A stretch of DNA of 64,000 nt, from NCBI GenBank assembly GCA_019637335.1, contig JAHBVV010000010.1, forward strand, positions 62,001 to 126,000. Reading direction: 5' to 3'. Of the stretch, positions 23,432 through 25,186 are shown piece by piece; position 1 is the first letter of the stretch, and every line of letters starts with the position of its first letter. The notes under the pieces were generated by a model. The model was given only the letters and a program-made list of their open reading frames with translations, searched no databases and was not told the DNA's origin. Made by a program: the position numbers and the translations under genes. Source of the stretch: Candidatus Hydrogenedentota bacterium. Lineage in GTDB: Bacteria; Hydrogenedentota; Hydrogenedentia; Hydrogenedentales; JAEUWI01.

Positions 23432-23474
23432 TTGACAATAAAAGGTTTACATGCTATCACAATGTCTGTAAAAT
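23432..23474 (+). promoter_or_regulatory. strong, overlapping sigma70-type promoters
   Basis: Two good promoters overlap here. One is TTGACA (23432-23437), 17 bp, extended -10 TGC-TATCAC (23455-23460). The other is TTTACA (23446-23451), 17 bp, TAAAAT (23469-23474). This AT-rich island stands out in the GC-rich surroundings and points at the two mini-proteins downstream. Confidence 0.75.
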
Positions 23475-23664
23475 AATGCATGGCATGTCGGGTTTCACCA
23501 TGCCGGTGTGGCCATGGTCTGGAGTGGGCCACCCAGCCGGCGCGAAGTTGAGTGCAACCGGTCAAAACGTTAGAGTGGAACGGGGATCGTGTCCGGAGGG
23601 TGTATGCCGCATCTCGGCTGCGCCTCGATAGGTCCGAATGAAGTAGAACAGGAGAACGTCACGC
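23475..23664 (+). other. structured 5' leader of the mini-protein operon
   Basis: About 185 bases separate the promoter from the first mini-protein. Short stems are visible: GGCATG with CATGCC around 23482-23505, and GTGGCC with GGCCAC around 23509-23532. I do not recognise a riboswitch class. A regulatory leader is possible. Confidence 0.35.
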
Positions 23665-23796
23665 ATGAAGCACCACCGGTTGGTGAGCAAAACGCCGCAA
23701 ACGTCCCAGACGAGCAGTAACTTTCAGGCCAAAGTTGACTTCAAGGTCGATTTCACGGCGCAACTTGTTCAGATCGTATTTAACAAGACGACCTAG
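23665..23796 (+). CDS. mini-protein A, 43 residues, unknown function
   Basis: ATG at 23665 has AGGAG ten bases upstream and lies downstream of a strong promoter. The peptide begins MKHHRLVSKTPQTSQTSSNF and ends ..VQIVFNKTT. Its first 35 residues resemble those of mini-protein B (RL-[VI]-[ST]-K-x-P, then TS..NF..K), so the two look like a tandem duplication. It is basic at the N-terminus with alternating polar and hydrophobic residues in the middle, and has no signal peptide. It could be a small structural protein, a peptide precursor or a regulator. Confidence 0.55.
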   Translation: MKHHRLVSKTPQTSQTSSNFQAKVDFKVDFTAQLVQIVFNKTT

Positions 23797-23813
23797 ACTC
23801 CGGGGATTCCGCA

Positions 23814-24050
23814 ATGAAATTCAACCCACATCTTCGCTTAATTACGAAAGCGCCCACCTCGGCCCAGACCAACTTTGCCATTAAGCTGCAAGGCACGCTG
23901 GACATCATCGACACGCTGTTGCTCGCGCAGCGCCAGGCCCAGTGGAAGGCCTTCTTCCCCGAAGGCGGCGCCGAGGGCGAGTCCGGCAACACCGGCGGCA
24001 CTGGTGGAACCGGCGGTATTGGTGGAATCGGCGGCGGCGGCGACCAGTAG
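23814..24050 (+). CDS. mini-protein B, 78 residues, Gly-rich tail
   Basis: Starting 17 bp after mini-protein A, this peptide has a similar N-terminal part (RLITKAPTSAQTNFAIKLQG), then a helix (IIDTLLLAQRQAQWKAFF). It ends in a Gly/Thr/Ile-rich tail of 20 or so residues (GGTGGTGGIGGIGGGG). The leader-plus-Gly-tail outline recalls precursor peptides of modified natural products, but no modification enzyme is next to it. Function unknown. Confidence 0.6.
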   Translation: MKFNPHLRLITKAPTSAQTNFAIKLQGTLDIIDTLLLAQRQAQWKAFFPEGGAEGESGNTGGTGGTGGIGGIGGGGDQ

Positions 24051-24189: not shown

Positions 24190-24265
24190 TTGCGGCGCTG
24201 TGGACAGGCGGGACGCCTATCCTACTTTTTTGCGGCGCCTTGGACAGGCGGGACGCGTGTCCAAC
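24190..24265 (+). repeat. two tandem copies of a ~40-bp palindromic repeat
   Basis: TGCGGCGC, then TGGACAGGCGGGACGC and a TATCC/TGTCC end occurs twice in a row with few differences. In the second copy the GGACA and TGTCC ends make a hairpin. The spacing between genes here is otherwise empty. Confidence 0.65.
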
Positions 24266-24343: not shown

Positions 24344-25186
24344 TCAGATTCGGCTGCGGCCCATCTGGGATATGGCGATTCGCAGTTCGTCGCAATCCTT
24401 GAATCGTTCGTCCGGTCGCTTGGCGAGTAGGCGCAGGATGATATCGCCCAGGCCGTGGGGGCATTTGGGGTTCACGAGCGAGGGATGATCGGGCTCGGCG
24501 CTGAGGTGGCATTGGTACATGCGCTGGAGGCTGTCGACCTGGAAGGGGAGGCGCTCGGCGAACAGGAGGTAAAGGGTGATGCCGAGGGAGTACTGGTCGC
24601 TCTTGGCGGTGGCCCCTTCGCCGCGGATGATCTCCGGCGGGACGTACAAGGGGGTGATCTGTTCGCCGGCCCCCTTGTCGAACATTTCGAGGAGGAGGCT
24701 GCTGCCATAAAGGGAGAAGTCGGCGAGCTTGGCGACGCCGGTTCGCGTAAAGAGGATGTTCGCCGGCTTGATGTCGTGGTGGACGATCTTCTGGTCGTGA
24801 AGATACTGTAGACCGAAGCAGATCTGGCTCACGATTCCAATTCGCTCCTGGAGGTTCCAGGGGCGATTGACGAGGTACCATTTCAGGTCGGGCCCGTCAA
24901 TGTACTCCATGACCATGCACTTGCCTTCTTCGCCGTCGATGAAATCGTAAATTTTCACGACATGGTCGTTGGCGTACTTCTTGAAGCGCTTGACGCTCTT
25001 GACGAGGTCGCGGAGGTGGAGGCGGTTCCGGAAGAAATTTTCCCGAAAGAGCTTGATCGCGACGACCTCGCCCTTCTTCGTGTCGATTCCCCGATACACC
25101 CGGCCCGTGCCGCCTTCGCCCAGGATCCGGTCCAGTTTGTAGTGGTAGAGCTTGCTTCGATCCGGTGCGTATTGTTCTTCGGCCAT
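24344..25186 (-). CDS. Ser/Thr protein kinase with altered HRD and DFG motifs
   Basis: The 280-residue protein is a free-standing Hanks-type kinase domain without membrane helix. It has the glycine loop GEGGTGRVYRG, the VAIK lysine, and the catalytic loop IVHHDIKPANIL, where HRD is HHD. The metal-binding DFG is DFS (LADFSLYG). The catalytic Asp and Asn and the metal Asp are kept, so activity is possible, but loss of the Arg suggests it is not controlled by activation-loop phosphorylation in the usual way. It follows rsfS by 26 bp in the gatCAB-rsfS direction and may share that transcript. It converges with the mini-protein genes. Confidence 0.88.
   Translation of the reverse strand: MAEEQYAPDRSKLYHYKLDRILGEGGTGRVYRGIDTKKGEVVAIKLFRENFFRNRLHLRDLVKSVKRFKKYANDHVVKIYDFIDGEEGKCMVMEYIDGPDLKWYLVNRPWNLQERIGIVSQICFGLQYLHDQKIVHHDIKPANILFTRTGVAKLADFSLYGSSLLLEMFDKGAGEQITPLYVPPEIIRGEGATAKSDQYSLGITLYLLFAERLPFQVDSLQRMYQCHLSAEPDHPSLVNPKCPHGLGDIILRLLAKRPDERFKDCDELRIAISQMGRSRI

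Follow-up and report, generated by a model that had tools for sequence, protein, structure and literature searches.

The locus studied here raises the question of what two very short, adjacent reading frames with similar beginnings contribute to the cell. It lies on contig C10 of a 7.16 Mb Candidatus Hydrogenedentota genome; the window is the whole stretch of that contig that was analysed, 64,000 nucleotides in length. A first-pass annotation had described a compact unit of a strong AT-rich consensus promoter, a structured leader and two related mini-genes, one with a Gly-rich tail, and had suggested secreted or modified peptide precursors of no known class. The unit consists of the following features, numbered in the window:

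23432–23460, + strand: promoter with −35 TTGACA (23432–23437), a 17-nt spacer and −10 TATCAC (23455–23460), read from the sequence; near-consensus sites are kept in relatives
23461–23664, + strand: untranslated leader with an AGGAG ribosome-binding site (23650–23654); fold z = +1.3, length not conserved
23665–23796, + strand: ORF1, 43 aa, with a leader-like N-terminus (MKHHRLVSKTPQTSQ) and then one amphipathic helix (residues 19–42), based on conservation, selection, motif rank and AlphaFold
23814–24050, + strand: ORF2, 78 aa, with a leader-like N-terminus (HLRLITKAPTSAQ), a helix (residues 21–42), Trp-Lys and a variable Gly-rich tail, on the same four grounds

The two mini-ORFs stand as annotated, separated by 17 nt, and their N-termini are indeed alike (RLVSKTPQTSQTSSNFQAK / RLITKAPTSAQTNFAIK). 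The promoter is also real by the measure of conservation: it matches the consensus at 10 of 12 positions, and sites with at least 10 of 12 matches lie in the 400 nt preceding ORF1 at 78% of 41 loci, compared to 2.6% of random 400-nt stretches from the same loci. The structured leader had to be dropped, as the 199-nt mRNA leader shows no excess folding over shuffled sequence (z = +1.3, with an equal or better fold in 185 of 200 shuffles) and differs widely in length among relatives. No Rfam elements or tRNAs were found within the window. The Gly-rich tail is present on ORF2 but is not a conserved feature; the counterpart of GGTGGIGG in relatives is a low-complexity region, mostly of T, D and G, that varies in length and sequence. 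Just 3′ of the pair, two near-copies of a GGACAGGCGGGACGC repeat (24190–24265) possibly represent a dispersed repeat element.

ORF1 and ORF2 occur in tandem, in the same order and 11–30 nt apart, in all 40 relatives fetched. Matches to ORF2 come from genomes across the order, and a profile built from 34 ORF2 sequences matches 54 of the 68 Candidatus Hydrogenedentota genomes at E ≤ 0.001. Among the 14 relatives in named records, three are uncultured bacteria and the other 11 carry the names Candidatus Hydrogenedentes, Hydrogenedens or Hydrogenedentota. Most codon differences in the pair are at third positions. For sister pairs with measurable dS, NG86 dN/dS lies between 0 and 0.11, with one exception of 0.28 that is based on two differences in all; purifying selection on ORF2 is seen in its first 50 codons. 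ORF1 and ORF2 are coding genes under purifying selection, and neither the lack of homologs nor the lack of selection on the peptides that had been set out beforehand as evidence against the annotation was observed. No covering family for the pair exists in Pfam, NCBIfam or PHROGs, and a search that also included PADLOC returned no match to a known protein family, which upholds the earlier statement that no known class can be assigned. A mobile origin was likewise rejected, since no relatives were found in viral contigs or plasmids.

The surroundings of the pair are variable. In the window, a stand-alone Ser/Thr kinase-like ORF of 280 residues (24344–25186, − strand) is convergent to it. Members of this kinase family adjoin the pair, with GatB and GatA coming next, in just 15 of 41 loci, and PEPCK or other genes take that place elsewhere; the kinase was therefore rejected as a partner and its position attributed to local synteny. 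PEPCK-like genes of two families, assigned by eye, replace ABC-F just upstream of the pair in L026, L027, L031, L035 and L042 and in L041, L043, L044, L048, L049 and L060. The ORF1/ORF2 unit has moved between loci yet stayed intact. A third mini-gene with the N-terminal motif described below is located upstream of the pair in two genomes (L026, 858–974; L029, upstream of 558).

AlphaFold models of both proteins contain single helices only. ORF1 consists of a basic N-terminus and one confident helix (residues 19–42), while in ORF2 one helix (residues 21–42) is followed by a nearly invariant Trp-Lys and a tail of low confidence.

The N-terminus is the part of the pair that links it to other genes. 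A broad alignment, together with a search of genomes apparently without the pair, led to further mini-genes of the same genomes, which have only their N-terminus in common with ORF1 and ORF2, in the form of the motif K-H-x3-[ILV]-[ST]-[RK]-x-P-x2-A-Q. In the broad alignment this motif is kept in both genes of the pair across the phylum while their cores diverge. The relationship was examined with a scoring matrix derived from 44 mini-genes of the cluster described below, with no window-type sequence included, which was run on all starts of the 25–130-codon ORFs of the window. ORF2 ranked first (23.3) and ORF1 second (21.9) among 2157 starts, with the next at 8.4 (mean −13.7, SD 5.4). A profile of 50 N-termini, this time with window-type members, gave nine matches in the source genome at E ≤ 0.1: the window pair, five on contig C26 and one each on C4 and C1. 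The "duplicated peptide family" of the first-pass annotation is thus supported and extends beyond the pair. The mini-gene on C4 (..AFYAKTPE / ..AFYAKTPD; L175, 13413–13583, and L279, 7868–8035, − strand) is matched by a close ortholog in G001 and stands apart from any MAT cluster (see below); no processing genes were recognised near the ninth, on C1 (L139, 6279–6398, − strand; MKHISPVSKTPQTASAV..., 39 aa).

The five mini-genes on C26 form an array of their own:

L156, 9287–10334: five tandem motif mini-genes on contig C26 of the source genome, directly upstream of a GNAT gene

Next come genes for the GNAT protein, a protease resembling CPBP/Rce1, an ABC ATPase of DrrA-like type, an ABC-2 permease and, last, a protein of 613 residues that we call MAT. 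The order GNAT-CPBP-ABC-permease-MAT is intact in all 20 loci of sufficient length, 18 of which have between one and five motif mini-genes just upstream. Mini-genes with a common leader-like N-terminus and divergent cores thus lie beside the processing genes, as expected of RiPP-type systems, in 18 of 20 complete loci. The clusters in L213 and L214 have no upstream motif mini-gene by pattern, and may contain diverged copies that the pattern missed. The MAT cluster of the source genome is preceded by genes resembling those of glutamate synthase (gltB and gltD by sequence; L156, 3031–9067), an upstream neighbour that several relatives seem to share. ORF1, ORF2, MAT, the permease and the protease match none of the PADLOC defence models.

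MAT is present in 62 of 68 genomes of the phylum and in none of 318 others. The N-terminal profile has no match in six genomes of other phyla, nor in G023, G028, G032 and G035, all of which are without MAT and the permease. Three of these four MAT-less genomes could be placed in a GatB marker tree, where they form one clade whose sister is MAT-bearing; the joint absence of MAT and motif thus amounts to one evolutionary event. Only this well-supported clade was used, as the tree rows of G000, G016, G021, G022 and G009 are evidently misread antisense frames. An apparent exception to the association of MAT with the motif, G009, is explained by a GNAT-CPBP-ABC-permease segment that runs off the end of its contig. 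In G006, which is 60% complete, the pair is present and no MAT was detected. The pair itself has ABC-F/kinase or PEPCK genes for neighbours and never shares a fetched stretch with MAT.

From the shared motif and this phyletic pattern, we infer that the unlinked pair uses the MAT machinery. ORF1 and ORF2 are thus probably, on sequence grounds, distal leader-bearing substrates of a phylum-specific, RiPP-like modification and export system. The tandem mini-proteins would be expressed from their own strong promoter. The first ~15 residues (consensus M-[KR]-H-x3-[ILV]-[ST]-[RK]-x-P-x2-A-Q) would serve as a recognition leader and the remainder as the product, an amphipathic helix that in ORF2 is followed by the conserved Trp-Lys and the variable tail. 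The leader may be bound by the RRE-like N-terminus of MAT, an RRE/SPASM/GNAT-like protein whose gene lies at a distant locus, usually in single copy, and the core would be either modified or merely escorted by MAT. The adjacent CPBP/Rce1-like membrane protease could then remove the leader, perhaps after P-x-x-A, and the neighbouring ABC-2 system would export the peptide. Secreted or modified precursors, as proposed earlier, remain the likeliest interpretation, since across the phylum the motif is also found at the start of mini-genes that neighbour an ABC exporter, a membrane protease and an RRE/SPASM protein. Two points against our preferred reading are that the pair itself does not lie beside MAT, and that its cores are kept throughout the phylum, which resembles housekeeping proteins more than natural products of the typical kind. 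No earlier description of such a system was found in the literature searched.

The anatomy of MAT bears on what the system might do to its substrates. Its SPASM domain is recognised by TIGR04085 above the NCBIfam cutoff. CteB is the one match among solved structures: MAT residues 234–384 align with the C-terminal part of CteB, and residues 13–84 align weakly (domain E about 0.5) with residues 6–77, the RRE region, which in CteB binds its leader peptide (PMC8326336). This RRE-like region is strongly conserved among 22 MAT sequences. Cysteines 409, 412, 418, 441, 74 and 77 are invariant and Cys72 is nearly so (numbered along the stop-to-stop frame of L156). The C-terminal region of MAT is homologous to the stand-alone GNAT of the cluster (hhalign probability 98.4%) and contains the strongly conserved motifs WENW, YDREMD and LHP. 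The CxxxCxxC radical-SAM motif is absent from all 25 MAT sequences, and no CoA-binding P-loop ([QR]xxGx[GA]) is conserved in 20 GNAT or 22 MAT C-terminal sequences; these features thus point to no particular modification.

These two absences, together with the form of the peptides as short amphipathic helices, would also suit an unlikely but reasonable alternative, namely that the motif is only an export or sorting tag and MAT a non-catalytic, leader-binding escort, with unmodified structural or surface-active helices leaving through the CPBP protease and the ABC-2 system. No homology is detectable between the cores of the pair and those of the cluster peptides, and a proposed relationship of the window cores to the type C peptides of the cluster (EVKLTF) was unsupported after leader removal. 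Unrelated cores are expected for leader/core precursors and are equally compatible with a shared sorting tag. The conserved SPASM and N-terminal cysteines, and the C-terminal WENW, YDREMD and LHP, argue against a mere escort and suggest a catalytic or cofactor role.

A second alternative, which we regard as rather improbable, is that ORF1 and ORF2 form an intracellular, two-component helical housekeeping pair, in which the motif is an inherited relic and the MAT system is not used. The pair has its own strong promoter, a constant pairing, a locus apart from MAT and helices conserved in both partners, all consistent with such a role. Against it, the motif persists in both genes phylum-wide while the cores diverge, and it is missing in the clade that is without MAT. 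That the peptides are instead selidamide-like, with the GNAT and the GNAT-like end of MAT acylating a lysine after the helix as GNATs lipidate Lys or Orn in selidamides (PMC9505594), appears very doubtful: the two GNAT-like units of the cluster and a lysine in the C-terminal part of 43 of 44 cluster peptides (1.2 on average) fit this chemistry, but the missing P-loops weaken it as a mechanism, and some ORF1 orthologs have Arg at the place of that lysine.

If our preferred reading of the pair as distal substrates is correct, leader-guided peptide processing would seem to have a core cellular role. RiPP-like clusters are usually patchy accessory traits. In this deep and uncultured phylum the MAT system looks near-universal; a single conserved machine would serve about nine candidate substrates in the source genome, including the two of the strongly promoted distal pair. 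In a broader interpretation, which we put forward tentatively, the RiPP-like system could be vertically inherited and near-phylum-wide: a single RRE/SPASM/GNAT-like protein of radical-SAM descent, with its SAM cluster lost, would serve both a local array and several dispersed mini-proteins, the promoted pair among them, as a housekeeping pathway of peptide modification or export with undescribed chemistry. As a SPASM protein without a SAM cluster, MAT offers an activity that is directly testable with short synthetic leaders.

Among known systems, MAT resembles the maturases of SCIFF/ranthipeptide maturation (CteA and CteB, PDB 5WGG) and QhpD in joining an N-terminal RRE-like region to a C-terminal SPASM domain, and in being encoded beside short precursors with a conserved N-terminus. 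The radical-SAM motif defines the SCIFF and QhpD maturases. Unlike them, MAT has no CxxxCxxC, ends in a GNAT-like region and does not come near the SCIFF and QhpD cutoffs, and most of the mini-proteins are without cysteines. Similarities to selidamides, the GNAT-lipidated RiPPs such as phaeornamide and the nostolysamides, include core lysines and the grouping of GNAT-like proteins with an exporter and with precursors that bear a leader; in contrast, the cluster GNATs are without a P-loop, no lanthionine synthetase is seen in the cluster, and the leader differs from NHLP or Nif11. Since neither the radical-SAM motif nor the GNAT P-loop is present, the system is not placed under SCIFF, QhpD or selidamides. 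CPBP-protease sorting (Synerg-CTERM/MrtS and JDVT-CTERM/MrtJ) has the same combination of a membrane protease of the CPBP/Rce1 family and a short motif common to several small proteins, but the motif of the present system is at the N-terminus and its protease falls far short of the cutoffs of those families.
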